Assembly (NCBI GenBank): GCA_030950365.1
Contig: JAUZRQ010000013.1
Coordinates: forward strand, 1 to 64,000
Origin: Candidatus Zhuqueibacterota bacterium
GTDB taxonomy: Bacteria > Zhuqueibacterota > Zhuqueibacteria > Zhuqueibacterales > Geothermadaptataceae
Reading direction: 5' to 3'
DNA length: 64,000 nt
The first letter of the stretch is position 1, and the number at the start of each line of letters is the position of its first letter. The notes below the pieces were generated by a model, which saw nothing but the letters and a program-made list of their open reading frames with translations, was not told the origin of the DNA and made no database searches. Below, in pieces: positions 10,128-31,057 of this stretch. Position numbers and translations under genes: made by a program.

Positions 10128-10139
10128 GTTGCCTCCGCT

Positions 10140-14344: not shown

Positions 14345-14382
14345 ATATCGAATCCTCTCTAATTGTCGGTGATACGGTTTCT

Positions 14383-16548
14383 TTACGACGCCGCTTCCGC
14401 CTTCTCTGCAGGTTGCAGGTCGAGCGCTTCGGCCACGAATTCGATCAGGTCTTTGACTTCAATTCTGTCCTCATTGCCCGATGCCTTCACCGCATCGGTG
14501 TACATGGTGTAATCTTTCGGGCAACAGGTAATGAAGTACTGGATGTCGCCCAGGGACAGCGCTTCCTCGATGCGCTGCTCGCTGGTGCGTTTCTTTTCGT
14601 TCGAGGTGTCCATCCAGATGCGGCCGCCGCCAGCGCCGCAGCAGAAGGTGTTCACCCCGCAGCGCGGCATTTCGTGTAGCTCCAGCCCGATTGCCTTCAT
14701 CACCTCGCGCGGCGCGTTGATCACCCGGTTATACCGCGCCAGATAGCACGGATCGTGATAGGTGACTTTGTACCCCAGCTTTTTCTTGATGGGCAGCTTA
14801 CCACTCTGGATCAAACTTAGCAACAGGCTAGTGTAATGTTCCACGGGATATTCGACACCGAATTCGGGATATTCATTGCGCAGGGTGTTCAGCGTGTGCG
14901 GATCGGTGGTGAAGATTTTCTGAAATTTTGCCTTTTTCAAGGTGGCCATGTTGTCTTCGACCAGCATCTCGAACAAGCCTTCCTCACCCACGCGGCGCAC
15001 ATCGTTGCCAGCGGTCTTTTCAGCATCGTACAGAATGCCAAAGTCCAGTCCGGCGGCGTGCATCACCTCGGCCACTTTTTGCGAGACTTTCTGCAATCGC
15101 GGATCGAAGGAAGCGAAATCACCGACATACCACAGGTACTCGACTTTTTCCTTGCGCGCGTCTTTGATTTTGAAGGAAAGCCCCTTGGTCCATTTGGCGC
15201 GCGTCTTCGGCGATTGCCCGAAAGAATTGCCGTAATCACCAAGGCTCATCAGGGCGTTTTGCAGATTATCATCGAGCTCACCGAGATCCACCAGATGCCG
15301 ACGCATTTGGACAATGCTGGTCAGATGTTCAATGCCCACAGGACAACTTTCCACACAGGCCATACAAGTGGTGCAACTCCACAGGGTCTCCGGCCGAATC
15401 ACGTTAAGGGGGACATCAACTTTCAAGGCGTCTTCGCTGGATTTACCATTTGCCAGTGGCCATTTCGAACCTTTGAGAAATTTTTGTTTAAACCACTCTT
15501 TCGGTGTTAACACCTCATTGGCAAAGGTACGCAGGTCGAGAATTAGATCACGTGGAGATAGGGTGGTACCTGCCGCATTGGCTGGACATGCCGCATGACA
15601 ACGGCCGCATTTGGTGCAGGCATCAAAGTCGAGCAACTCTTTCCAGGTAAAATCAGTAATATAAGTATAGCCCATGGGCGGCAGGGCATTTTTCTTACCC
15701 TCGGTCGGCTCGGGCTCGGGAAGCGGGGGTAACCGACGCGCGGCCATATCATCATAAAAAATCAGATTGGCCGTATCGGTAAAGATGTGCATAACTTTGG
15801 AATAAGGAATATAGCCAATAAATACCATGACTACTACCGCATGGACCCACCACATCCATTTATGCCATGCCAAAATACTTGACACGTCCATAGACTGAAA
15901 CATACCAGCAAGCCACCACCCCACTGGGGACCAGCGCTCAAATTCTGGCATGGTTTCGGCGATACGCAAACCTTCAATTAAAAACCCTGTGACACCGATG
16001 ACAAAGAGAAGCAAGAGAAACAGCATATCATCGGTCATAAATCCGGAGCGATCATATTTGCCATTCTGGTCATCCGGACGCGAATAGTCCAATTGCGTAG
16101 GTTTGACGACATAACGCCGAATAGCCATAAGCACCAGACCGATCAGAAAAAGGACTCCCCAGATATCCAGGACAAAGGAAAAGCCCAGATAAAACGTGCC
16201 TTTCAGGATAGATACGTCAAAGAAACGCAAAATATCGTGATCGATTGCCACGATCGTCGTGCCTATAAAAAGAAACGTAAATCCCCAAAAAATCAAAAAA
16301 TGGGCGAAGCCCGCGAAAGGGTCTCGCTTGCGTACGGTGGATTGTGCGGCAATCACTGCCAGAGCACGGGTAATGCGTTTGCCAAGATGATCAAAACGAT
16401 TGACCTTGCGCCCCCGTCGATATTTTTGAAACCGACGGAAAAAGCCAAACAAAAAGATAAAACTTGCTACGGCAGCTACCGCATAAAATACCAGTTGCAT
16501 CCACAAGGGGAAATGCAAGAATATTTCACGCGTCGGCACCTGGTTCAT
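14383..16548 (-). CDS. Emo-type membrane HdrD-like Etf:quinone oxidoreductase
   Basis: A 721-residue fusion: residues 1-265 hold about five transmembrane helices of the NarI-like cytochrome b type with possible heme histidines (FAHFLIFWGF, AWHKWMWWVHAV). Then two [4Fe-4S] motifs follow, CTKCGRCHAACPA and CTTCMACVESCPV, and a pair of CCG domains. Only the second CCG is intact (NTFCCGAGGGR, preceded by DPCYLARYN); the first reads EKTAGN in place of CCG. This architecture is that of the membrane FeS oxidoreductase that takes electrons from EtfAB to menaquinone (Emo). It lies downstream of etfBA on the same strand, separated by 361 bases. In this island it would be the exit for sHdr electrons. 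Confidence 0.85.
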   Translation of the reverse strand: MNQVPTREIFLHFPLWMQLVFYAVAAVASFIFLFGFFRRFQKYRRGRKVNRFDHLGKRITRALAVIAAQSTVRKRDPFAGFAHFLIFWGFTFLFIGTTIVAIDHDILRFFDVSILKGTFYLGFSFVLDIWGVLFLIGLVLMAIRRYVVKPTQLDYSRPDDQNGKYDRSGFMTDDMLFLLLLFVIGVTGFLIEGLRIAETMPEFERWSPVGWWLAGMFQSMDVSSILAWHKWMWWVHAVVVMVFIGYIPYSKVMHIFTDTANLIFYDDMAARRLPPLPEPEPTEGKKNALPPMGYTYITDFTWKELLDFDACTKCGRCHAACPANAAGTTLSPRDLILDLRTFANEVLTPKEWFKQKFLKGSKWPLANGKSSEDALKVDVPLNVIRPETLWSCTTCMACVESCPVGIEHLTSIVQMRRHLVDLGELDDNLQNALMSLGDYGNSFGQSPKTRAKWTKGLSFKIKDARKEKVEYLWYVGDFASFDPRLQKVSQKVAEVMHAAGLDFGILYDAEKTAGNDVRRVGEEGLFEMLVEDNMATLKKAKFQKIFTTDPHTLNTLRNEYPEFGVEYPVEHYTSLLLSLIQSGKLPIKKKLGYKVTYHDPCYLARYNRVINAPREVMKAIGLELHEMPRCGVNTFCCGAGGGRIWMDTSNEKKRTSEQRIEEALSLGDIQYFITCCPKDYTMYTDAVKASGNEDRIEVKDLIEFVAEALDLQPAEKAEAAS

Positions 16549-16909: not shown

Positions 16910-17878
16910 TTAACCTTTCAATTTCTCGGTCAGGGCCGGCACTACATCGAACAGGTCTTCGGTCACGCCGAAATGCGCCACCTCGAAAATCGGCGCTTCC
17001 GGATCGGTATTGATGGCGATGATCAGTTCCGCATCCTTCATGCCTTCGATGTGTTCCGGCGCGCCGCTGATGCCGACGGCAAAGTACAGCTTCGGCTTCA
17101 CCTTCAGGCCGGACTTGCCCACCTGACGCGTTTTGGGCAGCCACTTGTTATCCACAATCGGCCGCGACGAGGCCAACGCACCGCCCAGCGCCTCGGCCAG
17201 TTCTTCCACCATGGGCAGATTGTCTTCGCTCTGAATGCCGCGGCCCACACTAACCAGAATGTCCTGCTGCGTGATATCCACATCGCCGCCTTCCGGCTGG
17301 ATCAGGTTCTTGAAGCGCACGCGCGTCTGATCCAATCCGTCCGGCGCGGCTACCGTTTCCACCTCTGGACTGCCATCCTGCTTGCCGGCATCCACAGCAA
17401 ATGAACCGGCAAGAACACTGACTACGGACGAGTCGCCTTCCAATACCGATTCGACATTGATCTTGCCGCCGTAGAGCTGGCTTGTGGCCACCACCTGGCC
17501 GTTATCGATTTGCACGTCTGTGGCATAGGCCACCAGCGGCAGGTTGTTTTTCACCGAAACCGCGGCCGCGAGGTCCATGCCCATGGAGGTGTTGGGAATG
17601 AGCGTCAACCGCGGCTGGTTCTGTTCCAGAATGTGCGACAGGGCCCTGGCATAGGATTCGGGATTGAAGTGTTCCAGCGCGGCATTGTCCATATACAGCA
17701 CCTTATCAGCGGCGCCGAGACTGCCGGCCTGATTCTGAATGCCCGAACCCATCAGCACCGCCACGACGTGTCCGCCGCTCTGGCCGGCCAGTTCACGCGC
17801 CTTGCCGAGCAGCTCATAGGTCACGTCGTCGATCTTGCCTTGCAGGTGTTCCGCAACTACGAATACGTCTTGGCTCAT
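16910..17878 (-). CDS. etfA: Electron transfer flavoprotein alpha subunit
   Basis: A 322-residue EtfA. The C-terminal FAD domain is clear: ALASSRPIVDNKWLP, RQVGKSG, KPKLYFAVGISGAPEHIEGM, IIAINTDPEAPIF and a terminal DLFDVVPALTEKL. There is no N-terminal ferredoxin domain, so this is the short form. Its ATG overlaps the etfB stop (ATGA). Placed between the fused hdrC-hdrB gene and emo, it probably carries electrons from the sHdr complex to the membrane. Bifurcating activity cannot be decided from what is visible. Confidence 0.95.
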   Translation of the reverse strand: MSQDVFVVAEHLQGKIDDVTYELLGKARELAGQSGGHVVAVLMGSGIQNQAGSLGAADKVLYMDNAALEHFNPESYARALSHILEQNQPRLTLIPNTSMGMDLAAAVSVKNNLPLVAYATDVQIDNGQVVATSQLYGGKINVESVLEGDSSVVSVLAGSFAVDAGKQDGSPEVETVAAPDGLDQTRVRFKNLIQPEGGDVDITQQDILVSVGRGIQSEDNLPMVEELAEALGGALASSRPIVDNKWLPKTRQVGKSGLKVKPKLYFAVGISGAPEHIEGMKDAELIIAINTDPEAPIFEVAHFGVTEDLFDVVPALTEKLKG

Positions 17879-18642
17879 TTCTTAATCCCTTTCTCCTGAA
17901 GAATTTTGATGATCTTTTCAGCGATTTCTTCGGGCGACCCTTCCAGCATTTCCGCGCCAGCGCCTTTTTCCGGCTTAAACATGCGGCGGATGCTGGAGCC
18001 GATGTTGGCTTCGGTATCGTTCGCTTCCACTTCTTCGATTTCGGCCTGGCGCATCACCTGGCGCACGCGGCTCACCGGCGCATAGCGCGGCGTTTGCCGG
18101 GCGGCCTGCACACCAAATACGGCAGGCAGGTCCACTTCAAATTCCGCCATCACACCGCCGGCGTATTCTTTTTGCACCGTCACGGCGCCGTTGCTGGGCG
18201 CAACGCCGCTGACCACGCTCACGTGCGGCACATCCAGATAATTGGCCAGCAGCACGCCGAGCTGGCCGTCGCGATCATCGGCAGCCTGCACACCGGTCAG
18301 AATCAGATCATACTCCATTCCCGAAAGCACGCTGGCCAAGGCCTTTGCCAGCACATGGTTCGGCGTACCCGGCGGCAGATCGTTGGTGATCTTCACCGCA
18401 CGATCGGCGCCTTTGGCAATGGCCGTATACAGCACCTTGTCGGTGTCATCGCCCTCGAAAGCGATCACCGTCACGGTACCGCCGTGCTCTTCCTTCAGCA
18501 GCAGCGCTTCTTCCAGCGCATGTTCATCGAATTCATTCAGCTTGTAACTGAGATAGTCCCGGTCCAGATCGGTACCGTCGTCATTGATTTCCAGCTCCTC
18601 GACCAGATCGGGGACCTGCTTCACGGGCACAATAATGTTCAT
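17875..18642 (-). CDS. etfB: Electron transfer flavoprotein beta subunit
   Basis: A 255-residue EtfB beginning MNIIVPVKQVPD, with LNEFDEHALEEAL, the nucleotide-binding segment LILTGVQAADDRDGQLG and the C-terminal signature region EVDLPAVFGVQAARQTPRY. The last 40 residues are an acidic and lysine-rich tail with a helix ending EKGIKK. It overlaps etfA by four bases and follows the fused hdrC-hdrB gene by 50 bases with GGAG upstream, consistent with one transcript. Confidence 0.95.
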   Translation of the reverse strand: MNIIVPVKQVPDLVEELEINDDGTDLDRDYLSYKLNEFDEHALEEALLLKEEHGGTVTVIAFEGDDTDKVLYTAIAKGADRAVKITNDLPPGTPNHVLAKALASVLSGMEYDLILTGVQAADDRDGQLGVLLANYLDVPHVSVVSGVAPSNGAVTVQKEYAGGVMAEFEVDLPAVFGVQAARQTPRYAPVSRVRQVMRQAEIEEVEANDTEANIGSSIRRMFKPEKGAGAEMLEGSPEEIAEKIIKILQEKGIKK

Positions 18643-18692: not shown

Positions 18693-19973
18693 TCAATTCG
18701 CGGCCATGGCCTCGACCACGAGCTCGATGATATCGCGCACCACCAGCTTGCCTTCGTTGCCGGTGGATTTGACCGCATCTTCAAACCGCGATACTTCGTA
18801 CGGACAGCATACCGCCAGCACCTCAGCGCCAACTTCCACGGCTTCACGCACGCGGCGTTCGGAAAGCCGCTCGCTCACGTGATCGGCCATGAAGCCATCC
18901 AACCACATGCCGCCACCACCGCCGCCGCAGCAATAGCTATTTTCCCGGCAGCGGAACATTTCGATCAGCTCCACGCCCGGCAGCGCCTGCAGAATCTGCC
19001 GCGGCGCCTCGAACTCACCATTATGGCGGCCAAGATAGCAAGGATCATGGAACGTCACCTTATAATCCAGCTTTTTCGTGAAGTTTAGCTTTTCCAACAT
19101 TGGCGCCAGGAAAGTGGTGTAATGCACCACATCGTATTTGCCGCCGTATTTTGGATATTCCTTCCGCAGAGCATTCAGCGCATGCGGATCGGTGACCAGA
19201 ATCTTTTTGAATTTATAGCGCTTCATGGTTTTGATGTTTTGCTCGGCGAATTCTTCGAACAGGCCGATTTCGCCGGCCAGCCGCTGGCTGTCACAGGTGC
19301 ATTTTTCTTCTACGCCGAGAATGCCGAAATCCACGCCCAGCTCATTCAGCACGCGTGCCAGCGCTTTGCTGGCATCGATGCCGCGTGGATGATAGCTTGG
19401 ATAACACTCGACAAACCATAACACCTCGGCCTGCTTTTTCTCTTTCATGATGGGCACTGGCACGCCGGCATCTTTAGTCCAGGCGGCGCGCTTCTTTGGT
19501 GACTCGCCAAGTGGATTGCCGTAATCGAAGGTATTCTCGAAAGCCTGCTGCAACTCTTCCGGTACGTAGCCTTCCAGCACCGCTTCCTGCCGCACGGCAG
19601 GCATGATCTGGATCATGTCCACCTCTTTCGGGCACACACGCAGGCAGTTCATGCAGGTGGTGCATTGCCACAGCAGCGGGCTCTGGAATAGATCCTCCCC
19701 CCATTGGACGCGGCGAAAAATTTTTCGTGGACCGTAATCCCCTACCAGATTGACCGGACATACCGGCACACACTGTCCGCACTGGTAGCAATAGCCCAGC
19801 GACTCGCCACCTTCCAGGGCTGTCACCTTGTCCAGCATCTCCGTGTTGTAATCCCAGATCACCCGTTGTTCGAACATGCGGTTCCAGTGGCCGGAAATAT
19901 CCATACCTTCTTGAACAACATGTTCCTTTTCGATGATTTGATCGGGATCGATGGAATGCTTATTTGAAGCCAT
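18693..19973 (-). CDS. Fused HdrC-HdrB (HdrD-like) subunit of the sHdr system
   Basis: A 426-residue soluble protein: N-terminal HdrC part with CYQCGQCVPVCPV and CTTCMNCLRVCPK, then an HdrB part with two CCG domains. The second CCG is intact (DPCYLGRHN and ENSYCCGGGGGG); the first is altered to EKCTCDSQ, so one noncubane cluster is likely. In the usual sHdr order (C1-B1-A-hyp-C2-B2) this gene occupies the C2-B2 place as a single fused gene. The ATG at 19973 has GGAG at proper spacing; the longer TTG start at 19979 is less likely. Its position beside etfBA suggests it passes electrons to Etf. It also resembles the soluble half of Emo (14383-16548). Confidence 0.83.
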   Translation of the reverse strand: MASNKHSIDPDQIIEKEHVVQEGMDISGHWNRMFEQRVIWDYNTEMLDKVTALEGGESLGYCYQCGQCVPVCPVNLVGDYGPRKIFRRVQWGEDLFQSPLLWQCTTCMNCLRVCPKEVDMIQIMPAVRQEAVLEGYVPEELQQAFENTFDYGNPLGESPKKRAAWTKDAGVPVPIMKEKKQAEVLWFVECYPSYHPRGIDASKALARVLNELGVDFGILGVEEKCTCDSQRLAGEIGLFEEFAEQNIKTMKRYKFKKILVTDPHALNALRKEYPKYGGKYDVVHYTTFLAPMLEKLNFTKKLDYKVTFHDPCYLGRHNGEFEAPRQILQALPGVELIEMFRCRENSYCCGGGGGGMWLDGFMADHVSERLSERRVREAVEVGAEVLAVCCPYEVSRFEDAVKSTGNEGKLVVRDIIELVVEAMAAN

Positions 19974-20025
19974 ATTCAATGCTCCTCGCGGTTAAACGTG
20001 GGTCTTTTTCAAATCCAATCATTGC

Positions 20026-20781
20026 TCAGACGGATGTGGGCTTGTCCTCTTCGCGGGTGCCCTGATACACCCCCAGAAGTCTCCGCGAAAACTCCGGCAA
20101 GTCAGGAACCACCTTATTAAACTCCTGAGTCATTCGCATACGTAGTACGGTGTACACATAGATCACATACACACAGCTCAAATACACATCCGTACCAAAA
20201 ATGCTCTTACGGATGGCCTGAAACGAGGCGGCACTACCAACTTCGTGTACAAATGCCACGGCTTCGCCAACACGCATGTAAATATCGCCAACGGTTTCGC
20301 CTTCCAAGTTAAAGGTAGAATATGTAACCAGAGGCAGCGCTCCAGTTTTCACCTTCGGGTCCCACATCCAGCGCGTCCATAGCCAATATTGCTCGGGATC
20401 GGCAAAATGCAAAATCTCGCTGGCCACATCACAGCGCAACCGGACATCCAGGCCGTCAAAGCGATCGACAAAGGTTTGAAAACGGGATTTGAGCGGCCCG
20501 GAGCCATATAGCAGCTCCCGGGTCCATGCTTTCAAATCCTGTATTGGATACGTCTCCATGATTTTATCTGCCCGACGGCGAACAGCAAAGATGCGACGCA
20601 AAAGCGAATAATAATTGGCCGCGGACATCCGCTCGATGCCCTCCGGGCTTAAATGCTGCTGAAACCAACCCGCTTTGCCCTCCACTTCTGAACAGATAGC
20701 TGCCAGCTCATCGGCTGCCACCTTGTCCAGCGTTTCACGCATAAATTCGCGAGCAGTTTCGGTATCAACGACCTGTCTCAT
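20026..20781 (-). CDS. Conserved sHdr-cluster 'Hyp' protein
   Basis: A 251-residue mostly helical protein with no cofactor motif. It contains a conserved-looking stretch EILHFADPEQYWLWTRWMWDP (about residues 124-144) and only a few cysteines (C30, C116 and one near residue 205). Its place, directly after hdrA and before the hdrC-hdrB fusion, is the same as the conserved hypothetical gene found between shdrA and shdrC2 in sHdr clusters, and the length fits. Its role in the complex is unknown; a structural subunit is the simplest idea. Confidence 0.75.
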   Translation of the reverse strand: MRQVVDTETAREFMRETLDKVAADELAAICSEVEGKAGWFQQHLSPEGIERMSAANYYSLLRRIFAVRRRADKIMETYPIQDLKAWTRELLYGSGPLKSRFQTFVDRFDGLDVRLRCDVASEILHFADPEQYWLWTRWMWDPKVKTGALPLVTYSTFNLEGETVGDIYMRVGEAVAFVHEVGSAASFQAIRKSIFGTDVYLSCVYVIYVYTVLRMRMTQEFNKVVPDLPEFSRRLLGVYQGTREEDKPTSV

Positions 20782-20828
20782 TGGGCATCACATTGCATTG
20801 TCGGTTGATGGAATGACCAGCTTTTTAC

Positions 20829-21887
20829 TCAGGCTGCTTGAGCTACTTTGCGTAACATCGATACCGCCTTCAGAGCGGCTGCACTGGCCGAGGAGATTGA
20901 ATCTTCCAGGTCGGCTGGGCCGGTGCACGCACCACAGGCGAACACGCCCTCCTTGCTGGTAGTCACCGTATTCAGGGCGCCACCAATGGTCTCGATGAAA
21001 TTATATTTATTGGTTTCCAGGCCGAAAACTTTGGCCATTTCTTTGGTGCCGGCGCTGGGCTCCATGCCGACCGACAGCACCACGATATCCATAGGCACTT
21101 CCATCGGTCGGCCAAAGGTCGCATCTTCTCCCCGGACAATGAGCTGATCACCTTTCTTCAGCACTTCGGTGGCAATGCCTTTAATATAGTTGACTTTGTA
21201 CTTTTCCTGCGCCGGCCAGTAAATTTCATTCTCCCAATAACCATACATACGCATGTCAATATAGAAGATAAACACCTTGCAATCCGGCACCTGCTGGCGC
21301 ACTTCGATGGCCTCCTTGGAGGCAATGCCGCAGCATACTTTGGAACAGTATTCATTGCCAATCTGCCGATCACGTGAACCGACACATTGAATAAAACATA
21401 ACCGTTTCGGTGGCTGCCCGTTAGAGGGCCGCACCACTTTGTGGGCCTTTAACATCTTTTCCAGGTCCACCAGGGTAATCACGTCATCGAATTCATAATA
21501 GCCATACTGCTGGGTTTCACGCCCCGGATCGAAATGCGTGAACCCCGTGGCGATGATAACGGCACCAGCTTTCACTTTTTCCACCCCTTTAGCATTTTTC
21601 AGCGTGACCTCAAAGTCGCCGACGCTACCAGAAGCGGCCGTTACAGTGGAATTCAAATGCAATTCAACATTGGGATGGTTCTGTACTGCATCGGCCATTT
21701 CTCGCATCGCTTCTTCAGCAGGGCGGAAGTCCGGCGTCAATGCAGCATAGTTTGCCTCATCCGGGGTTCCCCCCAACCGGTTGCGCTTTTCCACCAGGAT
21801 AGCCTTGTAGCCCAAGTCGGCGACCCCGCGAGCTGCCTCCAAACCGGCAGGCCCGCCGCCCACAATTAATACGGATTGTTCAGGCAT
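20829..21887 (-). CDS. hdrA: sHdrA flavoprotein subunit
   Basis: A 352-residue HdrA core: FAD-binding VLIVGGGPAGLEAARG at the N-terminus, ATGF segment, and the HdrA cluster motif CVGSRDRQIGNEYCSKVCC with GIASKEAI. The end GVFACGACTGPADLEDSISSASAAA is the second FAD motif. It lacks the extra ferredoxin domains of methanogen HdrA, which is typical of sHdrA. The start at 21887 (second ATG) has GGGAGG six bases upstream and overlaps hdrB1 by eight bases. As the flavin subunit it would receive electrons from oxidation of lipoyl-bound sulfur. Confidence 0.92.
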   Translation of the reverse strand: MPEQSVLIVGGGPAGLEAARGVADLGYKAILVEKRNRLGGTPDEANYAALTPDFRPAEEAMREMADAVQNHPNVELHLNSTVTAASGSVGDFEVTLKNAKGVEKVKAGAVIIATGFTHFDPGRETQQYGYYEFDDVITLVDLEKMLKAHKVVRPSNGQPPKRLCFIQCVGSRDRQIGNEYCSKVCCGIASKEAIEVRQQVPDCKVFIFYIDMRMYGYWENEIYWPAQEKYKVNYIKGIATEVLKKGDQLIVRGEDATFGRPMEVPMDIVVLSVGMEPSAGTKEMAKVFGLETNKYNFIETIGGALNTVTTSKEGVFACGACTGPADLEDSISSASAAALKAVSMLRKVAQAA

Positions 21888-23073
21888 CAACATCCTCCCA
21901 GGTTAAATATTGCTTTTCTCCACGCTTGATTTTTTCCACTTCGTCTTCGAATTCCTTCCAGGCTTTTTCCACATCTATACCGATTTTTTCCAACAACGGT
22001 TTGTTGTCGGTGTTGTGCCAATGCAACTGCAACACCTTGTAAGGGTGGGCTCCCATAGCCAGTGCCGCCATCTGCGAATCAGACATGACCGGCACACCCA
22101 CGTTCCGGCCATGCGCCTTGGCCGCAAACTGGCTTTGATCCAGCGTGGTCACGCAACCGGTATCGTGCGTCACCACCACATCCGGATCAGCTTCTTCTTT
22201 CATGACTTCGATTTTGCGCTGCGTGGCAAACGAACGTGAGAAATCGCGCGAGACCAGGATATGGCGAAATCCAAATCCACAGCAGTCGTACCAGGTTGAA
22301 TAATCGCGCACCTCCACACCAATGGCTTTTAGCGTGGCCGTAATAACGGCTGTACGCTGAGCACCATAAATTTCCGGGTCGTAAATCGCGTCTTCACGTA
22401 CCAGCTTATGGTAATGGCAGGCAGGATGCACGGTGGCCGCCACCATGCTCATATCACGCACCTGCAGTTCCGCAATCCGGTGCCGCATTGCATGCACCCA
22501 TTCACTATAATGCACGATTTCTTCGGGCATCACCAGTTTTTTACCCAACTTGGCAAGGATATCCCGCACCTGCCGGCGTAGTTCTGGACTATGGATCAGT
22601 TCCTGGCGGACTTCTTTATAATGCCCGAAACTGGTCCCACAATGGATAATCGGAAAATACCCGGTTTCGGCCGCAGCAGCAAAATTGCGCATGGCCACTG
22701 CCGCCTGCGCCGCCACGTTGGATGTGGCCGAAGCATAGTAATTCCATGCTGTACAAGAGGTCTGGTCGGTAGGATCCAGATAATCCAAGCCGAGCTTACG
22801 GTTAATCCAGAATATGGATGTGGAATATCCCGGGATATGCCCGCATTGGCCACAGCTTTTATGGTGCCAGGTAGTGTTAATGGGAATCTTTTTTTTGCGG
22901 CCAAACTTGGTTTCCACTTCGATATAGGGTTCAGGAACTCGCTGTACTTCCCATTCTCCTTCCTTTTCCAATTGGAAGATAATATCATGATAATCTTCCG
23001 TGGGGGCATCGGCCGGATTGACGTTGAATTGCCGTTCACTGGCCGGCTTAACTAACGTTTCAACCGGTATCAT
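21880..23073 (-). CDS. hdrB: sHdrB1 CCG-domain subunit
   Basis: A 397-residue HdrB-type protein. The N-terminal half has cysteines HKSCGQCGHIPG, QTSCTAWNYYAS and HCGTSFG; the C-terminal CCG domain has HPACHYHKLV, WYDCCGFGF and HDTGCVTTL. Such motifs bind a noncubane [4Fe-4S] pair in HdrB, the site of disulfide chemistry. In sHdr the substrate is thought to be sulfur bound to lipoyl-LbpA. It is about 100 residues longer than HdrB of methanogens, with an N-terminal extension of about 70 residues and an acidic C-terminal tail. A GGGAG site lies before the ATG. Confidence 0.9.
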   Translation of the reverse strand: MIPVETLVKPASERQFNVNPADAPTEDYHDIIFQLEKEGEWEVQRVPEPYIEVETKFGRKKKIPINTTWHHKSCGQCGHIPGYSTSIFWINRKLGLDYLDPTDQTSCTAWNYYASATSNVAAQAAVAMRNFAAAAETGYFPIIHCGTSFGHYKEVRQELIHSPELRRQVRDILAKLGKKLVMPEEIVHYSEWVHAMRHRIAELQVRDMSMVAATVHPACHYHKLVREDAIYDPEIYGAQRTAVITATLKAIGVEVRDYSTWYDCCGFGFRHILVSRDFSRSFATQRKIEVMKEEADPDVVVTHDTGCVTTLDQSQFAAKAHGRNVGVPVMSDSQMAALAMGAHPYKVLQLHWHNTDNKPLLEKIGIDVEKAWKEFEDEVEKIKRGEKQYLTWEDVDA

Positions 23074-23115
23074 AAAAAGGTCTCCCTTGTTTTACGTTCC
23101 AAACCAACGAGGTAT

Positions 23116-23820
23116 TTAATCGAAGGTGACGTCATAACCTTCTTCTTCCAGCCGTTCTTCCATCACGTCGGCCAGAATCATAAATAACCCTTCATCCACT
23201 TCCTTAATCATATCCATCACGCCTGTGTGGTGCCAAATAAGGTATAATTCGATAATGGTTTTATCGCTCACCTGCCAGCCGGTCTCGGTAGTATGCAGGG
23301 TTTCGGGGGGCAACGCTTTGCGCCAAAGGTCGAGATTGTCGGAGATTTCTTTAACATGAGGCCCCCAATCAGGGAAAGCGCTGGGTTGTAACATATCTGG
23401 AGATACCTGGGTGCCCGTACTCATAATTTTGTAAACAATGCGACCGTATCCTTCCAGGGCTTGCTGGGCGCTAGCCAGACCATTTTTGACCGCAACCTCC
23501 CGCATGACGGTAATAAGACCACCAGGAGAGTTTTGCCGTGGACACCGATCGCAGGAAAAACACTGCGAACAATCCCAGATGCTATCATTGAGGAAAATGT
23601 AAAATAGCTCCACGTCTTCACGGGCTACAGCCTGGGCAATCTTGCGCGGACTGAAATCATAAAATCGCGCCGATGGACACGCCGCTACACAGATGCCACA
23701 CTCATAGCATCCATAAAGGTATTCATCAAAGCGCATGTCCCGTTTCACTTCATTAAACAGGCGTTCCTTTTCTTCATAAGGAACCTCGGCATAACGGTTT
23801 TGGCTCAGGTCTAATGCCAC
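23116..23820 (-). CDS. hdrC: sHdrC1 iron-sulfur subunit
   Basis: A 234-residue protein with two [4Fe-4S] motifs, CYECGICVAACPS (residues 38-50) and CSQCFSCDRCPR (about 84-95), as in HdrC. The C-terminal half is helical and acidic. Translation starts at GTG (23820) with AAGGGAG seven bases ahead. It would relay electrons between HdrB1 and HdrA in the cytoplasmic complex. The gene begins after a 121-base AT-rich gap with a terminator-like hairpin, so the core hdr genes may have their own promoter. Confidence 0.92.
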   Translation of the reverse strand: MALDLSQNRYAEVPYEEKERLFNEVKRDMRFDEYLYGCYECGICVAACPSARFYDFSPRKIAQAVAREDVELFYIFLNDSIWDCSQCFSCDRCPRQNSPGGLITVMREVAVKNGLASAQQALEGYGRIVYKIMSTGTQVSPDMLQPSAFPDWGPHVKEISDNLDLWRKALPPETLHTTETGWQVSDKTIIELYLIWHHTGVMDMIKEVDEGLFMILADVMEERLEEEGYDVTFD

Positions 23821-23941: not shown

Positions 23942-24412
23942 TTAAGCTTCAAAACCTTCGACGTGCTCGCAGCCTTTAATATCGTCCGCTTCAATCTTCT
24001 TCTTATACGCCTCCACGGCCGCATCTCCAGTCACCAATGCCTTCAATTCTTCATCCAGGTTGGTGGGTTGCATCTTCACAATCCATCCCTTCCGATACGG
24101 GCTGCGATTGATGATCGTGGCATCCTTCTCGATTTCTTCATTCACTGCAATGATTTCACCAGAAATCGGCGATTTAACGGGGCCAACCCATTTGGCACTT
24201 TCTACCGTTGCCACGGGACGCCCCTTTTTACGACTGGTACCAACCGCCTTGGTCTTCGCGTGTAGCAAGGGCCCGGCCATATTCTGGGCGATATCCGTCA
24301 TCCCGATATTGACGGTGCCATCGTCGTTGAGTTGGACCCAGGTATGATCATCCACACTGTAGTATAAATCTGTCCGGATCACACATCCACGAATCTCTTG
24401 CGTATCTGCCAT
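23942..24412 (-). CDS. lbpA: Lipoate-binding protein LbpA of the sHdr system
   Basis: A 156-residue H-protein-like lipoyl carrier. The lipoyl lysine is K74 within TVESAKWVGPVKSPISG, a form typical of sHdr-linked LbpA rather than GcvH. The first 25 residues include RGCVIRTDLYYSVDDHTWV. A 30-residue helical tail follows the lipoyl domain. GGAGGAG precedes the ATG at 24412; an in-frame extension to 24436 is not needed. LbpA is proposed to hold sulfur intermediates on its dihydrolipoyl arm while sHdr oxidises them. It sits between the sulfur-transfer genes and hdrC1. Confidence 0.92.
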   Translation of the reverse strand: MADTQEIRGCVIRTDLYYSVDDHTWVQLNDDGTVNIGMTDIAQNMAGPLLHAKTKAVGTSRKKGRPVATVESAKWVGPVKSPISGEIIAVNEEIEKDATIINRSPYRKGWIVKMQPTNLDEELKALVTGDAAVEAYKKKIEADDIKGCEHVEGFEA

Positions 24413-24448
24413 TGTGTTTCTCCTCCACAAACTCAATGATCTTCAAAA

Positions 24449-24829
24449 TTAGAAATACATGACGTGATCGGATTCCAGCGCCAGATTGATGATGCTGGTC
24501 GCACCGAGGATTTCCACGCCATCGATCAAGTCATCCTGCGTCATATTCCACAAAGCCAAACTTTGCTGACACACACGCAATTTCACACCGGAGTCGATGG
24601 CCTGCTCCAGCATGGTTTTCAGGGTCACATCGCTGGTCGGGTCCAGTTTGATCTTTTCGGCTTCGCCTTTTTTCAACTGGTTGGTGCCGTTCATGGTAAA
24701 CCAGACCATCACATCCATTTCCATCGCTGCCGCTGCCATGGCGTAAAACAATGGCGAATAGGTTCTCGTGGGCGTTTCCACACCGTGCGTTTGAATCACC
24801 AGGATCTTTTTGCCTTCAAAATCGTCCAC
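24449..24829 (-). CDS. DsrE-family sulfur-transfer protein
   Basis: A 126-residue DsrE/F-fold protein starting at GTG with GGAG upstream. The conserved cysteine is C87 in GVKLRVCQQSLALWNMTQDDL, matching the active cysteine of DsrE-like sulfur carriers, and the C-terminus ATSIINLALESDHVMYF is typical of the family. It would take sulfane sulfur from TusA and hand it on toward LbpA, whose gene starts 37 bases downstream. No rhodanese gene was found in the island. Confidence 0.87.
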   Translation of the reverse strand: MDDFEGKKILVIQTHGVETPTRTYSPLFYAMAAAAMEMDVMVWFTMNGTNQLKKGEAEKIKLDPTSDVTLKTMLEQAIDSGVKLRVCQQSLALWNMTQDDLIDGVEILGATSIINLALESDHVMYF

Positions 24830-24889: not shown

Positions 24890-25147
24890 TCAACCAATTT
24901 CGCAGGGCCGGGAGGGATCGGAGTACACGATCAGGTAGCGCTTGCTCCAATCCCAGTCGTCCTGCTCCATCATCAATTCATGCAGCTCGTCTTTGTCGCT
25001 AGATTGCGCCAGCACGCGCAACCGAATTGGCGTGCCAGTAGCATTGGTCTCGAGAATTTCCAAAAGCAACCAGTCGCCCGCGGTTTCTTCATACAGCCGA
25101 CTGATTTCTTTAAGCCGAATCTCTCTGCCAACAAACGCGCTATCCAA
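24890..25147 (-). CDS. Small protein of unknown function in sulfur-transfer operon
   Basis: An 85-residue protein starting at TTG (25147), ten bases after the ligase stop; AAGGCGGA overlapping that stop is the only ribosome-site candidate. It is acidic, predicted alpha/beta, with a Trp- and Asp-rich stretch EQDDWDWSKRYLIVYSDP and one cysteine near the end (C82). No family was recognised. Tight spacing on both sides suggests it is real and co-expressed with the ligase, DsrE and lbpA genes. Confidence 0.6.
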   Translation of the reverse strand: MDSAFVGREIRLKEISRLYEETAGDWLLLEILETNATGTPIRLRVLAQSSDKDELHELMMEQDDWDWSKRYLIVYSDPSRPCEIG

Positions 25148-25156
25148 GGTTCAAAC

Positions 25157-26230
25157 CTATTCCGCCTTCTGCTGCAAACTCATGAGTACCGATACCCAAT
25201 CCTCGATTTCCACACCTGGCGTTTGTACATCGTGATCCTCATAAAATTGCCCCACCCGCTCGCGAATGGCATCGGGCTCAAGTCGCACATTCACCAGCGC
25301 TTTTTCCAGATCGGTAAACAGCCGGTGCGGATGGAAGGTGAAATCGCCGGACAGCGACAGGTCTTCGATGCGATCGTGATGCAACCGCGCCATGGCCCGC
25401 ACCAGCCCGCCACGCGCTTTCAGCATCGCCTCCATCACCCAAACATCCTGATGAATCTTTACCCCATCTCGCATCAGACCGCTTTTCTGGTATAGCCAGG
25501 ATTCAGACTGGAATTTTTCATCCAGGGTTTCGATCGTAGCAAGTTCATCCGGCGTGAGCTCTCCCTCCACGATCTCTTCGCCCAGCGCCTTTTCACATTC
25601 ACGCATGTAAACCGCCTTCACGTCTTCGCGGTCCGGCACCGTCTGCAGTTCCTTTTTCATGGTGGTCATGTATTCCTGCAGACTCTGAAACACCTTGTCC
25701 CGAAATTTTTCGGAAGGCACTTTCAATACCCGGGCCATGAGTTCGGTATTGAAATCGAACAGAAAGCTGCCTACCATCACTTCGGCCTGCCCTATGGCAG
25801 CCGCACCGGTACCTCCGATTTTCCTTCCGGAAACATGAATATCGTTGATGGGACGAAATTCGGCCTGAATGCCGAAAGCATGGTAGGTTTGCACGAGCGG
25901 GCGGGCATAAATTTGAAATCGTTTGTTGAGGTTCCAGGGAAGACGGTCTGGCGCCATGATCCACTGGGTGAACATTTGATTTTCATCCAGCAGCACCGCG
26001 CCACCACCAACTTCACGTCGTAGCACCGGGAGCCCCTTTTCACGGCAGAACGTCATATCCACCTCTTTATCCACCTCCTGATGAAAACCCACGCACACAT
26101 ATGGTTCCTTCGGATTCATCAGAAGAATGGTGTCCGGGGTGTGATCGGTTCTGGCATAGGCCACCCCATGATACACGGTTTGCGAACGCAGATACGATAC
26201 GGTGCCCAGGTCCACGAGCCGAATAGCCAT
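25157..26230 (-). CDS. Lipoate-protein ligase family protein next to lbpA
   Basis: A 357-residue ligase-fold protein. The lipoyl-AMP motif reads RREVGGGAVLLDE (residues 71-83) and the catalytic lysine is K137 in HVSGRKIGGTG. Residues from about 235 form a C-terminal domain like that of bipartite sLpl(AB). It lies two genes upstream of dsrE and lbpA, so LbpA is the likely target. It is closest in build to the Lys-to-Arg paralogue at 9084-10127 (both start with a similar IRLV-LG strand) and more distant from that at 12774-13898. Confidence 0.85.
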   Translation of the reverse strand: MAIRLVDLGTVSYLRSQTVYHGVAYARTDHTPDTILLMNPKEPYVCVGFHQEVDKEVDMTFCREKGLPVLRREVGGGAVLLDENQMFTQWIMAPDRLPWNLNKRFQIYARPLVQTYHAFGIQAEFRPINDIHVSGRKIGGTGAAAIGQAEVMVGSFLFDFNTELMARVLKVPSEKFRDKVFQSLQEYMTTMKKELQTVPDREDVKAVYMRECEKALGEEIVEGELTPDELATIETLDEKFQSESWLYQKSGLMRDGVKIHQDVWVMEAMLKARGGLVRAMARLHHDRIEDLSLSGDFTFHPHRLFTDLEKALVNVRLEPDAIRERVGQFYEDHDVQTPGVEIEDWVSVLMSLQQKAE

Positions 26231-26289: not shown

Positions 26290-26808
26290 TTAGATAAACA
26301 AAGTCACATCAGCATCCGCAGCATACTCCAGGAACGTGGCCGCGCCACCAATTTCGCACTCGTCTATGAATTCTTCTTTAGTGAAGCCAAATACATCCAT
26401 GGTCATCTGGCAGCCAATCATCCGCACTTCCAGGTCCACACAAGCCTCACGGAGCTGCTCTATAGAAGGCACGCCCTTATTCTTGAACGTCTGCTTCATC
26501 AGGCTTGTGGCCACCGATTCGAAGCCGGGCAGGTTGGAGGTGAGCAAATTGGGAATCGGCCAGTTGATTTTCTGAAATGCTTTGGGCCCGAAGGGCATTT
26601 TCATGGGCATGGCCGGATTGCCCACCGGCGAGACGGCAGCATCCAATTTTTTCCTAAGCAGTGGCAAGCCGTAAAAGGTGAAGAAAATGGCAACTTCCCA
26701 ATCCATTGAAGCGGCGGCGCTACCAAGAATGAATGGCGGATACGCCCAATCCAGTGTGCCTTTGCTGGCGATCATAGCGAGGCGCCGTTTTCCATTTTCT
26801 TGTGCCAT
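26290..26808 (-). CDS. DsrE3-like sulfur-transfer protein
   Basis: A 172-residue DsrE2/DsrE3-type protein. Two cysteines ten residues apart, C123 and C133 (ACVDLEVRMIGCQMTMDVFG), match the pair seen in DsrE3A proteins of sHdr organisms; C151 follows in DECEIGGAATFLE. The N-terminal part (RLAMIASKGTLDWAYPP, then FFTFYGLPLL) has the DsrE alpha/beta fold. It is encoded 74 bases after tusA, and such proteins accept sulfur from TusA. It would be the first relay toward LbpA. Confidence 0.87.
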   Translation of the reverse strand: MAQENGKRRLAMIASKGTLDWAYPPFILGSAAASMDWEVAIFFTFYGLPLLRKKLDAAVSPVGNPAMPMKMPFGPKAFQKINWPIPNLLTSNLPGFESVATSLMKQTFKNKGVPSIEQLREACVDLEVRMIGCQMTMDVFGFTKEEFIDECEIGGAATFLEYAADADVTLFI

Positions 26809-26882: not shown

Positions 26883-27122
26883 CTAATGGGTTTTGCGAAT
26901 CAAAAAGCGAAATTTGCCGCCATCGAGTTCTTCTGCCACCAGCAGTTCGTGTTGCGTTTGCTTGGCCCAGGCTTCCATGTCTGGAATCGAGCCCGGATCG
27001 GTGGCGATCATCTCCAGCACCTGTCCCACTTCCAAATCATTCATCGCCTTTTTGGTTTTCACAACCGGCATCGGGCATAAAAGCCCGGTACAGTCCAACA
27101 TTTTATCGGCTTTGGCCTCCAC
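26883..27122 (-). CDS. tusA: TusA-family sulfur carrier, canonical
   Basis: A 79-residue TusA protein with C11 and the CPxP motif C16-P-M-P (DCTGLLCPMPVVKTKKAM). The GTG at 27122 is chosen because GAAGGAGGAG lies six bases upstream and the resulting length is normal; a longer frame to 27167 would begin inside the upstream hairpin. C16 would carry the persulfide passed to the DsrE proteins encoded next. The later part (IATDPGSIPDMEAWAKQTQHELL) is standard for TusA. Confidence 0.92.
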   Translation of the reverse strand: MEAKADKMLDCTGLLCPMPVVKTKKAMNDLEVGQVLEMIATDPGSIPDMEAWAKQTQHELLVAEELDGGKFRFLIRKTH

Positions 27123-27162
27123 GAAAACTCCTCCTTCCAGAATCCGTTTCTGTTTTAACGTT

Positions 27163-27185: not shown

Positions 27186-27467
27186 TTAGCTGATCCGCTC
27201 TTTACAGCGGATAAAAAAACTGACCTGGTCGCCCCGCTCATAGACATCAATAAGTTCATGACCGGTGACGCGACACCAGGCTGCAACATCCGCAGGAGCG
27301 CACGGATCGTCCCAGATCAGCTCCAGGATTTGCCCGGCCACCATCGTCTCCAATGCGGCTCGCAACTGCAGAAGTGGCATCGGCTCCATTTGCCCAAGGC
27401 AGTCCAGTCGTCGTGAGACAACAATAATCGGAGATGGCTGCCGAGAATCATTATGGGACGCTGTCAT
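27186..27467 (-). CDS. TusA-like protein lacking the catalytic cysteine
   Basis: A 93-residue protein that aligns with TusA over its length (LDCLG, PMPLLQLRAAL, DDPCAPADVAAWCRVTGHEL). The CPxP motif is changed: after LDCLG the sequence is Q-M-E28-P-M-P, with glutamate where the sulfur-bearing cysteine should be. C23 of LDCLG is kept, and two new cysteines lie at about C56 and C65. It is the first gene of the island, 63 bases before the true tusA start. It may be a regulator, chaperone or a partner that docks to TusA-binding proteins without carrying sulfur. Confidence 0.78.
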   Translation of the reverse strand: MTASHNDSRQPSPIIVVSRRLDCLGQMEPMPLLQLRAALETMVAGQILELIWDDPCAPADVAAWCRVTGHELIDVYERGDQVSFFIRCKERIS

Positions 27468-28170
27468 AACCGGGGTTCCTCTATTCGGCCCGCCTTTTCG
27501 ACGTGCCTGCGGCCCCAAAGAACCCCACGACGAATCGGCCGAGCCCTTCCTGCATGCCTCTCTTTTAAGCAAACTCCATACCATCGCAGGATCATCAAAA
27601 TATATGAATATACTTATCGAATAAGTTATTAATTTTAAAATTGTTAAATTCAATTAATAATTTTAATAATCGCGACCACCGTGTCCGAAGGGAGGGCATT
27701 TTGTGGTGAGAATTCGGGAATATGGCAAAAATACCCTAATTTGTGCGGCGCATTTCTATACCTCCCGTATTTTAGGTGCCTGCACAAAAGTTTGGCGGCC
27801 CATCGAAACGTGCCATAATTTGCATGCGGATCGACCGAATGGATGCCTACTTTCTAGATCGCCTATCAGCCAGCCAATTACAATGCAATATCTGTAACGA
27901 GCACTTATCCCCTGGTCATGCAATTATCCGTGTTCAATCCGTGGCTTCGAAAAATCCGCTGATGATTCAGCCATAAGTTCATTCGGTCCTTCCGGCTTCA
28001 TCGTAAGAGAGACATTGAGATATGCATCCCCCTTCTTCATGCGGAGATTGGCGGGGAAAACGGAGTGGCCAGATAGCATCAAAATTGTACGTGTGGCGGG
28101 ATAGCCAAAATCTGGTTATGCAGCTCGCTTGGCATTCAGTCTGAACGCAGCCATTAGCCCATCATCGCGC
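27468..28170. other. Upstream region of the sulfur island; AT-rich core
   Basis: 703 bases without a firm gene. 27585-27680 is very AT-rich with nested palindromes (AATTTTAAAATT) and is the best place for the promoter and operator of the sHdr genes; TTGAAT and AATAAC at 17-base spacing on the minus strand are a weak candidate. A 50-codon plus-strand frame at 27824-27976 contains CNICNEHLSPGH but lacks support and is not called. No sigma-54 site was found for the minus strand. Confidence 0.5.
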
Positions 28171-29571
28171 TTATTCTTTGAAATCCCACTTGCTCAGCCC
28201 GTGCCGGCGCATTTTTTCACAGAAATTCTTGTAATCCATCTGCGCTTCCCGCGCTGCATCGACGATGCGGCCGCCATGCTTTTCCAGCAGCCGGCTCAGG
28301 TAATCCTTTTCGAAACGGTTCAGCAGATCGGTTTTGGCCTTTTTGAACGGTACGCCATCATACACATAGTATTTGAACTCCTTCTCGTTTTTCTTGGGCA
28401 GCAGACACTTCTGAATGGTCGCCTCCTGGATCTGCCCAGACTTTTCGATGATCACGGCGCGTTCGATGACGTTTTCCAGCTCGCGGATGTTCCCCGGCCA
28501 GCGGTAGTTGAACAGGGTCTGAATCGCCTCGGGCGTGATGCTCTCAATCTCTTTTTTGAACTTTTCAGCATAAAGCCGGGTAAAATGCACCGCCAGCAAA
28601 GGCAAATCATCCATGCGCTCACGGAGTGGAGGAACATGGATGACGACCACGTTCAACCGGTAAAACAGGTCTTCCCGAAACTCACCTTTACCGATGGCTT
28701 CCTGCAAATCTTTGTTCGTGGCAGAAATAACCCGCACATCCACCTGGATGCTCTGGTTGCTGCCCAGTCGTTCGAAGGTTTTTTCTTGTAGCACCCGCAG
28801 CAGTTTGGCCTGGGTAGCCAATGGGATATCGCCGACCTCATCGAGAAAAATGGTGCCGGAATCGGCCTCCTCAAACCGACCGATACGGGTTTTGATGGCA
28901 CCGGTGAAGGCGCCACGCTCATGGCCAAACAGCTCACTCTCCAGCAAATTCTCCGGCAGCGCAGCACAATTGACGCGCACAAACGGCCGGTCGCGTCGAC
29001 TGCTGTTGTAATGGATAGCTTTGGCGATGAGTTCCTTACCAGTGCCGGTCTCCCCATAGATCAAAATCGTCGCATCGGTATTGGCCAGGTCCTCGATTAG
29101 TTCATAAATTTCCTGCATTTTGTGCGATTTACCTATGATGTTGCTGAAGCTGTAGCGCGATTCGACCTCCTGCCGCAGGCGGTGAATTTCCTGCTTCAGT
29201 GCCGCTTGTTCCAGACAACGGTTCAATACCAGAATCAGTTCATCATAATTGATGGGCTTGGTCAGGTAGGTGAGCGCGCCAAGCTGCATGGCCTTTACAG
29301 CGTGCTCAATAGAGCCATGCGCTGTGATGATGATCGTCGGAATGTCTATGCCCTGTTCACGCAATCGTTTAAGCAGGGTCAACCCATCCAGATTCGGCAT
29401 CATGTAATCGGCAATAATCACATCGACGCGTTCTTTTTCTAGCATCGCCAGTGCTACGGCACCATCCAGCGCGGTAACAACGGTAAAACCTTCACGCGAT
29501 AGGTTAGCCTGCATCACTTTGAGTGTAGCTGGCTCGTCATCGATAACTAAAATGGTGTTCTTTGGCTTCAT
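28171..29571 (-). CDS. NtrC-family sigma-54 response regulator
   Basis: A 466-residue regulator: receiver domain (1-120) with phosphoacceptor D55 in VIIADYMMPNLDG, AAA+ domain with Walker A GETGTGKE (173-180), the sigma-54 contact loop GAFTGA (220-225) and arginine finger region (RWPGNIRELEN), and a Fis-type DNA-binding helix-turn-helix near residues 430-460. It overlaps the start of the kinase gene frame by 35 bases and is its partner. A consensus sigma-54 promoter at 31346-31361, in front of the divergent FadL-like gene, is its most likely target. Confidence 0.95.
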   Translation of the reverse strand: MKPKNTILVIDDEPATLKVMQANLSREGFTVVTALDGAVALAMLEKERVDVIIADYMMPNLDGLTLLKRLREQGIDIPTIIITAHGSIEHAVKAMQLGALTYLTKPINYDELILVLNRCLEQAALKQEIHRLRQEVESRYSFSNIIGKSHKMQEIYELIEDLANTDATILIYGETGTGKELIAKAIHYNSSRRDRPFVRVNCAALPENLLESELFGHERGAFTGAIKTRIGRFEEADSGTIFLDEVGDIPLATQAKLLRVLQEKTFERLGSNQSIQVDVRVISATNKDLQEAIGKGEFREDLFYRLNVVVIHVPPLRERMDDLPLLAVHFTRLYAEKFKKEIESITPEAIQTLFNYRWPGNIRELENVIERAVIIEKSGQIQEATIQKCLLPKKNEKEFKYYVYDGVPFKKAKTDLLNRFEKDYLSRLLEKHGGRIVDAAREAQMDYKNFCEKMRRHGLSKWDFKE

Positions 29572-31057
29572 AGACTTTCAATGTTGTTGGAAAACGCAAA
29601 ACCGCTTTGGTTCCTACATGATCACGAGGCTCCAGGTGCACCGAACCCTGGTGGCTATTCATAATTTTGCGCACCACCGGTAACCCCAGTCCGGTACCAC
29701 GCAATTTGGTGGTCACAAACGGCTTAAACAAATCCTCAGGATCGCGTTCCCCCAGCCCCTCGCCATCATCTTCAATGATCAGCACGACCTCATGCAAACT
29801 ATTGGCCGGCATGGCCTGATCGTAATAGCAAGAGATGCGGAGGCGACCACCCGGTTGCATGGCATCGATGGCATTGTCGATCAAATTCAGCAGCGCCCGC
29901 TCCACCTGGACTTCATCCAGTGGCAGCAATGGTAAATTGCCATCCATGTCAAGCTGGACCCGTATCTTTTTCGAACGGATACGCTCCTGCATGGTCTTGA
30001 GCGCATTCTCGATTAGGGGCTGAATCTGACAGTAGGAAAACTCCAAAAACAGGGGGCGGGCATAATCGAGCATTTCGTCGGTTACGGCGTTCACCCGCTT
30101 GACTTGCTCGTCGATGATCTGCAAGTACGACTGCAGCTCCTCGTTTTCGATCTCGCCTTTCAAAAAGCGTACGGCCCCAGCGATGGCGTTGAGGGGATTT
30201 CGCACCTCATGCGCTACGATCGACCCCATTTTGCCGATCTCGGCAAGATTTTTGGCCTGCTCGAGATGTTTCTGCATTTTTACGGCTTCAGTCACATCCT
30301 TCACATATTCAATCACCTGCTCCACTTGGCCGGCTTCATTCAGCAGCGGAAAGTCGTAAATCTCAAAAATGCGCTCTTCATTACCATACGAAGTACGTTT
30401 GGTGCATTGGGTGAAAGAATGGCCGCCAAGTTGAAACACCGTATCGGCGCGGCAGAACGAACAGCGACTCTCCCGTCCCTGGCACATCTCGAAACAATGC
30501 TCTCCCGAAAGCTCATCCAGGCTCTTACCGATCAGCTTCTCCATCACCGGGTTGGCATCCACGATGCGGTAGTTGCGATCGATGATCATGATGCCATCCG
30601 GGATGCCGACAAAAATGGCTTCCAGCTTTTCGTTGGCCTTTTTCAACCGACGGGATATCTCCTCGGCATTCTCTTTCGCCTGCCGCAGATCGTGAATATT
30701 TTGCCGCAAACGACGCACCATTTCGTTAAATCCGAGAAACAGCATATCCATTTCATCCGCCGGCTCGCTCAGGCCATTCACTTCCATTTGCACTTCGAGA
30801 TTTCCATTTTGCACCTCTTTCACCTTGTCGGTAAGATCGATCACCGGTTGAACCATGATGCGCGCAATTACGGAAATCCCTGTGATGCCGACGGCAATAT
30901 AAAACACCGTCTGCCAGATAAGCCCGGTTTTTAACCCCATCATACCGGAGTAAATAAAAAAATACAGCAGCAGACTGCCAAATACAGAAAACATGACCAA
31001 AAGACTGATACTGGACAGCATGAATTTTTTCTTTAATCCCGCGCGATAACTCGCCAT
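29537..31057 (-). CDS. PAS sensor histidine kinase, membrane-bound
   Basis: A 506-residue kinase with two membrane helices (about 13-36 and 47-66) separated by only about ten residues, so there is almost no periplasmic sensor. HAMP (67-120), PAS (about 145-255), HisKA with H283 in VAHEVRNPLN, and HATPase with DNAIDA, DDGEGLG and GTGLGLPV follow. The PAS domain holds cysteines C188, C192, C199 and C202 (plus C218), spaced as a possible metal or redox site. The signal is thus probably cytoplasmic or membrane-derived. The gene overlaps the response regulator and faces the FadL-like gene. Confidence 0.93.
   Translation of the reverse strand: MASYRAGLKKKFMLSSISLLVMFSVFGSLLLYFFIYSGMMGLKTGLIWQTVFYIAVGITGISVIARIMVQPVIDLTDKVKEVQNGNLEVQMEVNGLSEPADEMDMLFLGFNEMVRRLRQNIHDLRQAKENAEEISRRLKKANEKLEAIFVGIPDGIMIIDRNYRIVDANPVMEKLIGKSLDELSGEHCFEMCQGRESRCSFCRADTVFQLGGHSFTQCTKRTSYGNEERIFEIYDFPLLNEAGQVEQVIEYVKDVTEAVKMQKHLEQAKNLAEIGKMGSIVAHEVRNPLNAIAGAVRFLKGEIENEELQSYLQIIDEQVKRVNAVTDEMLDYARPLFLEFSYCQIQPLIENALKTMQERIRSKKIRVQLDMDGNLPLLPLDEVQVERALLNLIDNAIDAMQPGGRLRISCYYDQAMPANSLHEVVLIIEDDGEGLGERDPEDLFKPFVTTKLRGTGLGLPVVRKIMNSHQGSVHLEPRDHVGTKAVLRFPTTLKVYEAKEHHFSYR

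Follow-up and report, generated by a model that had tools for sequence, protein, structure and literature searches.

A conserved TusA paralogue without the sulfur-carrying cysteine, a possible docking or control partner of the TusA-DsrE2 relay in KSB1 bacteria

A cysteine-less tusA at the head of a sulfur island

The window, by which we mean the whole 64,000-nucleotide stretch of DNA analysed, carries a sulfur island on its minus strand, and the first gene of this island (27186..27467, stop codon included) encodes a TusA paralogue of 93 amino acids without the sulfur-carrying cysteine. The frame opens with an ATG at 27467 and runs for 93 codons plus the stop. Its motif is R-R-L-D-C-L-G-Q-M-E-P-M-P, where Glu28 (codon 27384..27386) occupies the site of the TusA cysteine and pairs with Cys19 of E. 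coli TusA in a profile alignment to 1dcj and 3lvj; an earlier, sequence-only reading had placed a glutamate at this site, and the sequence, the PF01206 match and the alignment to E. coli Cys19 all bear it out. The cysteines that the protein does have are Cys23 (codon 27399..27401), Cys56, Cys65 and Cys88.

The protein matches Pfam TusA (PF01206) with 68.4 bits against a gathering score of 28.6. It is below the NCBIfam cut-offs for TusA, YedF and YeeD, as is its canonical neighbour; for the TusA equivalog the two score 38.6 and 58.5 bits against the required 78. The AlphaFold model (pLDDT 86.6) has a predicted beta-alpha-beta-alpha-beta-beta topology, and its best PDB match is 3lvj_C, E. coli TusA complexed with IscS, with a TM score of 0.88 by target length: a TusA fold is confidently predicted. 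In its own genome, this gene and the adjoining canonical tusA are the only TusA matches over the cut-off.

That canonical tusA (26883..27128) follows directly, again as first read, with the motif LDCTGLLCPMP and a Pfam score of 91.7 bits; its frame is open to 27167, and the GTG start was inferred from a ribosome-binding-like stretch and from the orthologue in a second genome, G001. Next comes a DsrE/DsrF/DsrH-like gene (26290..26808) with a cysteine in RMIGCQMTMD, at first called DsrE3-like, which NCBIfam assigns to DsrE2 (NF047629, 213 bits, cut-off 210). Behind this triad, all on the same strand, lie genes for a lipoate-protein ligase-like protein (25157..26230, family search), a small protein of 85 aa (24890..25147), a DsrE-like protein (24449..24829, family search) and a GcvH/LbpA-like lipoate-binding protein (23942..24436; PF01597 127.5 bits, NF002270 127.5 over 117). 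The hdr block (18693..23820) encodes HdrC-, HdrB- and HdrA-like proteins, a 251-aa protein without a family and an HdrC2B2-like fusion, and fits the order hdrC1B1A-hyp-hdrC2B2, where HdrC and HdrB were family-tested and HdrA, hyp and C2B2 were named by reading. EtfB and EtfA (16910..18642), also named by reading the sequence, are followed at 9084..16548 by genes for a membrane HdrD-like protein, a second GcvH-like and two more lipoate-ligase-like proteins (these three by reading), and LipS1-like and LipS2-like radical SAM proteins, the last two being best family matches below the cut-off (228.6 of 230 and 208.5 of 270). Such an sHdr-LbpA-type cluster is headed by the triad in most genomes that have the triad.

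Two other products of the island deserve mention. The 85-aa protein is conserved in eight of nine KSB1 clusters (it was not found in the stretch from G067), with an invariant WLLLE and a C-terminal PxxPC, and gave no match in Pfam, NCBIfam or a PDB fold search (none under E 0.6). The protein at 14383-16548, adjoining EtfBA, joins a weak nitrate-reductase-gamma-like part to ferredoxin domains and a CCG domain, and is a possible electron route to quinone.

A conserved promoter-like site and its regulators

Upstream of the Cys-less gene, at 27568..27583 on the minus strand, is a sigma54-type -24/-12 site, TGGTATGGAGTTTGCT, which is conserved between genomes as YGGTATNNNNTTTGC and contains the GG and the GC typical of sigma54 promoters. 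The window has a single copy of the conserved form (15 bases from 27569, minus strand), and six other loci have one copy each, in all seven cases ahead of the operon; in six genomes the Cys-less gene is the first gene behind it, at a distance of 50-116 bases. In the seventh locus (L089, genome G028, 9471-9756) the distance from the site to tusA is 285 bases, and no Cys-less gene is recognisable between them; the site is absent from the loci of G067 and G068. Over the whole window, the sigma54 consensus with up to two mismatches shows no excess (39 occurrences vs 43.8 expected from shuffles), and the case is made by the conservation of the site from genome to genome. When single genomes are scored by the strict consensus, their best sites are weak to moderate, with shuffles scoring as well in 11 of 300 for G000, 28-39 of 300 for five others and 4 of 300 for G028, and in G003 and G005 the top-scoring strict-consensus site lies elsewhere, at -384.

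Further upstream, and also on the minus strand, are genes for an NtrC-type response regulator with a sigma54-interaction domain (28171..29571) and a PAS/HAMP histidine kinase (29537..31057). Within the stretches fetched, regulator homologues lie upstream in 5/9 KSB1 loci, the window included, and they also lie upstream of tusA-dsrE2 in 7/13 Nitrospinota loci, where TusA is single and has its cysteine. From this gene order, regulator-tusA-dsrE2 looks like a wider module, to which the Cys-less gene would be a KSB1 addition. Beyond the kinase gene, an exact sigma54 consensus, TGGCACCATTCTTGCT, is found at 31346-31361 on the plus strand, a short way ahead of the gene for a FadL/OmpP1-like outer-membrane protein (31409-32683) that is perhaps co-regulated with the sulfur island.

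The cysteine-less gene is always found with tusA and dsrE2

We surveyed 82 KSB1 genomes, 18 of which had a match at E 1e-14, and inspected all 18; more divergent Cys-less forms could fall below this threshold. The Cys-less gene is present in eight genomes, always in the order Cys-less gene-tusA-dsrE2 and always as an open frame: G000 and G001 (MEPMP), G003 and G005 (YDPLP), G007 and G008 (FGPMQ), and G067 and G068 (YDPLP). The last two belong to the same phylum but lie outside the window's class, and the gene thus occurs in two classes. Among the matches read, the other ten genomes have Cys-bearing TusA only. The residue at the cysteine site is Asp in four orthologues, Glu in two and Gly in two, so the stress first laid on glutamate was misplaced and the common trait is the loss of the cysteine.

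This type of dsrE2 occurs in nine of the 82 genomes, and eight of the nine have the Cys-less gene directly before tusA-dsrE2; at the same threshold it was not found in the 73 genomes without this dsrE2 type. The corresponding Fisher value of 2.5e-10 is no test of function, because the genomes are related by descent and the genes belong to one operon. The ninth genome, G028, has tusA-dsrE2 alone and an sHdr-type cluster, to which the Cys-less gene is therefore not essential. Conversely, G067 (98% complete) keeps the triad and has no HdrB match, which makes the triad the smallest unit seen. With these two genomes, the idea of an essential sHdr subunit was set aside. The stretch from G067 (L087, 9329-19348) carries no hdr genes. 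The genes after the triad encode a protein with rhodanese and metallo-beta-lactamase parts, a molybdopterin oxidoreductase and a SulP transporter there, which may be a further context of sulfur metabolism for the triad.

Outside KSB1 we searched 198 and 369 further genomes, and the cysteine is kept in 40/40 of the TusA loci read, 20 per search out of the matches listed. A scan of genome contigs for Cys-less patterns, which were narrow and would miss the form of G067 and G068, returned 28 loci; only three of these (L050-L052) belong to the clade described here, and all three match KSB1 genomes (L051 corresponds to contig 638 of G005, a genome of the same family). Loci L053-L077, labelled as Rokubacteria, Binatota, Betaproteobacteria, Planctomycetota and others, have TusA-like domains with a cysteine that is not followed by proline: motifs such as ACGEL and CGNG replace CPxP, often with two domains per locus and some in longer frames. 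They are seemingly another divergent TusA branch. A parallel loss of the cysteine in Nitrospinota DsrE2 was also considered and rejected, since 12/13 keep it; the one exception has Tyr in its place (L110, 1495-1995, one Nitrospinales genome).

The nucleophile is lost and its surroundings are kept

Seven positions are identical in all 34 canonical TusAs aligned: D22, G25, C28, P31, G45, D60 and W64. The eight Cys-less orthologues read D7E1, G3N2W2E1, D4E2G2, P6Q2, G8, D8 and W8 at these positions, i.e., C28 alone is lost in every one of them. D54 is likewise kept in all eight, and 15 columns of their alignment, which spans two classes, are invariant. In E. coli TusA, according to the available part of the structural study, D45 makes a bond to the NH of Cys19 and D51 is put forward as the base, so that the two orient the cysteine and, as proposed there, activate it (PMC2854127); D54 and D60 are their equivalents. 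By alignment, the acids of the site are thus retained in a protein whose nucleophile is gone. The same source gives R31 and F58 as residues used for IscS binding, but their equivalents say little here, because they are conserved neither in the Cys-less proteins nor in the canonical partners. Together, the pattern points to a protein that may help or control and not to a carrier, and members of the Cys-less clade may be misannotated when they are named sulfurtransferase TusA.

The protein could still be a carrier if Cys23, which precedes the lost site by five residues, had taken over. Cys23 is invariant in 8/8 Cys-less orthologues, though the nearby D22, G25 and P31 vary, and the position is often not Cys elsewhere (Ala prevails in the second 20-row set from outside KSB1), so that a cysteine is dispensable for the fold; D60, the equivalent of the proposed general base, would also be in place. 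However, 33 of the 34 canonical TusAs have Cys23 alongside Cys28, which marks it as inherited and not as a new feature or a replacement. In the AlphaFold model, moreover, Cys23 is predicted just past strand 1, whereas residue 28 lies two residues ahead of helix 1. We consider a carrier using Cys23 unlikely, if the best of the alternatives. A disulfide or relay between Cys23 and Cys65 was set aside, as residue 65 is Ser in G067 and G068.

Still less probable, in our judgement, is that Asp or Glu at position 28 imitates the charge of a persulfide or thiosulfonate, so that the protein would permanently occupy a partner as if loaded, or act as a sensor. An acid is found there in six of the eight orthologues and across two classes, and the gene opens a sigma54-type operon that lies close to the genes of a sensor kinase and an NtrC-type regulator, as one might want of such a mimic. 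The two exceptions, G007 and G008, argue against it: they have Gly at the site, and their triad and most of their cluster are unchanged.

An old gene under selection

A tree of 42 TusA rows places the eight Cys-less ones in a single clade (support 97/93). Because the motif itself could pull these rows together, we dropped the motif columns. With all rows kept, the clade was then not recovered (two changes; a single change in 6% of bootstrap trees), but one clade was not rejected either (AU p 0.43). Leaving out the longest-branch row as well (G075_3638) brought the clade back with 97/89 and one change in 96% of bootstrap trees, and without two further long rows the values were 97/88 and 96%. 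The gene therefore likely, though not certainly, arose once and long ago.

The Nei-Gojobori dN/dS of the Cys-less gene is 0.153 for G000-G001, 0.056 for G003-G005 and 0.085 for G007-G008, the three unsaturated pairs (G067-G068 is saturated); by these codon comparisons the gene is under purifying selection, with dN/dS of 0.06-0.15. It does evolve faster than its neighbours: between G000 and G001 its identity is 71%, vs 95% for TusA, and its dN/dS is the highest of the operon, the 13 other genes with finite dS lying at 0.012-0.052. This, and its absence from G028, is what one would expect of a decaying or hitch-hiking duplicate. Such a passenger is nevertheless improbable, given dN/dS values well under 1 in three pairs, 15 columns held invariant across two classes, frames without internal stops in all eight genomes, and first place behind the promoter-like site in six. 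The least credible explanation, an error in sequencing or assembly or one mutation of recent date, to which the sequence-only reading would have turned had relatives shown CPxP in this gene, is ruled out by seven other genomes: the cysteine is absent in 8/8 orthologues, from eight genomes in two classes, of which seven are assemblies other than that of the window. What that reading had seen as a kept fold with a lost catalytic residue next to an active copy is thus supported, and the gene, which lies in an island for sulfur oxidation, is in addition old and under selection; a sensor, a decoy, a scaffold or a carrier on Cys23 are the candidate roles that the reading proposed.

Discussion

The explanation we favour, with a probability of roughly one half, is that the Cys-less protein is a pseudo-TusA that does not carry sulfur and serves the relay of TusA and DsrE2 as a subunit for docking or control. 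We prefer it because the cysteine is lost while the fold and the helper residues are kept, and because the smallest unit seen is the triad. The protein would be a pseudo-sulfurtransferase, in which the persulfide-carrying cysteine is permanently lost and the scaffold and the acids of the vacant site are kept. Encoded with tusA and dsrE2 in an apparent sigma54-type operon, it would dock at or regulate the relay by which TusA and DsrE2 may feed the sHdr-type sulfur-oxidation complex; it could, for example, fill a TusA-binding site without taking sulfur, and so set the stoichiometry or the direction of transfer. Its presumed partners are DsrE2, TusA or the Hdr complex. We note that the loss of the cysteine should weaken the known mode of binding: in the available parts of the respective papers, the C18S mutant of Metallosphaera cuprina TusA fails to bind DsrE3A (PMC4175335), and the cysteine of YeeD (C17) is needed for YeeE binding (PMC11073785). 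With about equal chances of being right or wrong, then, we picture an anciently fixed TusA that is a standing component of the relay, where it would control or organise the delivery of sulfur and never hold any itself.

A natural and selected Cys-less TusA separates docking from sulfur carriage within one fold, which bears on how sulfane sulfur is handed over to the sHdr complex without loss or oxidation. Should it bind DsrE2 or Hdr proteins, it would be a ready-made control with which to study how TusA recognises its partners apart from the chemistry. No Cys-less TusA is described in the open-access literature searched, a scope outside which lie a Protein Science article from 2024 about the sHdr transferase cascade and a 2019 review of TusA; within the same literature, a control or organising role of a non-carrier, if true, would be undescribed for the TusA fold.

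Comparison with known systems

The Cys-less protein resembles TusA, YedF and YeeD (TsuB) in its PF01206 match over the cut-off, its predicted fold and its Asp54, Asp60 and Trp64. These carriers have the CPxP cysteine, which all eight Cys-less orthologues lack. The setting is also familiar. Purple sulfur bacteria have the gene order rhd-tusA-dsrE2. M. cuprina has dsrE3A-dsrE2B-tusA, where, as in KSB1, tusA lies beside a DsrE2/DsrE3-type gene and Hdr-like genes, but where the available part of the paper mentions no second, Cys-less TusA (PMC4175335). Among the Hdr-like/LbpA loci, the KSB1 cluster resembles Group III, which has EtfBA (PMC6067878, section 5, the part available) and shares with the KSB1 cluster the Hdr-like, GcvH/LbpA-like, LipS1/LipS2-like and EtfBA proteins and the lipoate ligases. 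The host differs, being KSB1 here and Actinobacteria or Firmicutes there, and compared with Group III as that section describes it, the KSB1 cluster adds the Cys-less TusA, the conserved 85-aa protein and the membrane HdrD-like protein.

A sulfur relay in which a catalytic homologue is produced along with a non-catalytic one has a parallel in DsrEFH and TusBCD, where only one subunit has the active cysteine. According to the available part of a survey of DsrEFH, TusA passed its sulfur to DsrE and not to DsrF or DsrH (PMC13293266). There the subunits have the DsrE fold; here the predicted fold is that of TusA, and any complex is putative. The same part of that survey attributes rare, scattered loss of the DsrE cysteine in type II DsrEFH to likely sequencing error, unlike the fixed Cys-less TusA clade of KSB1.
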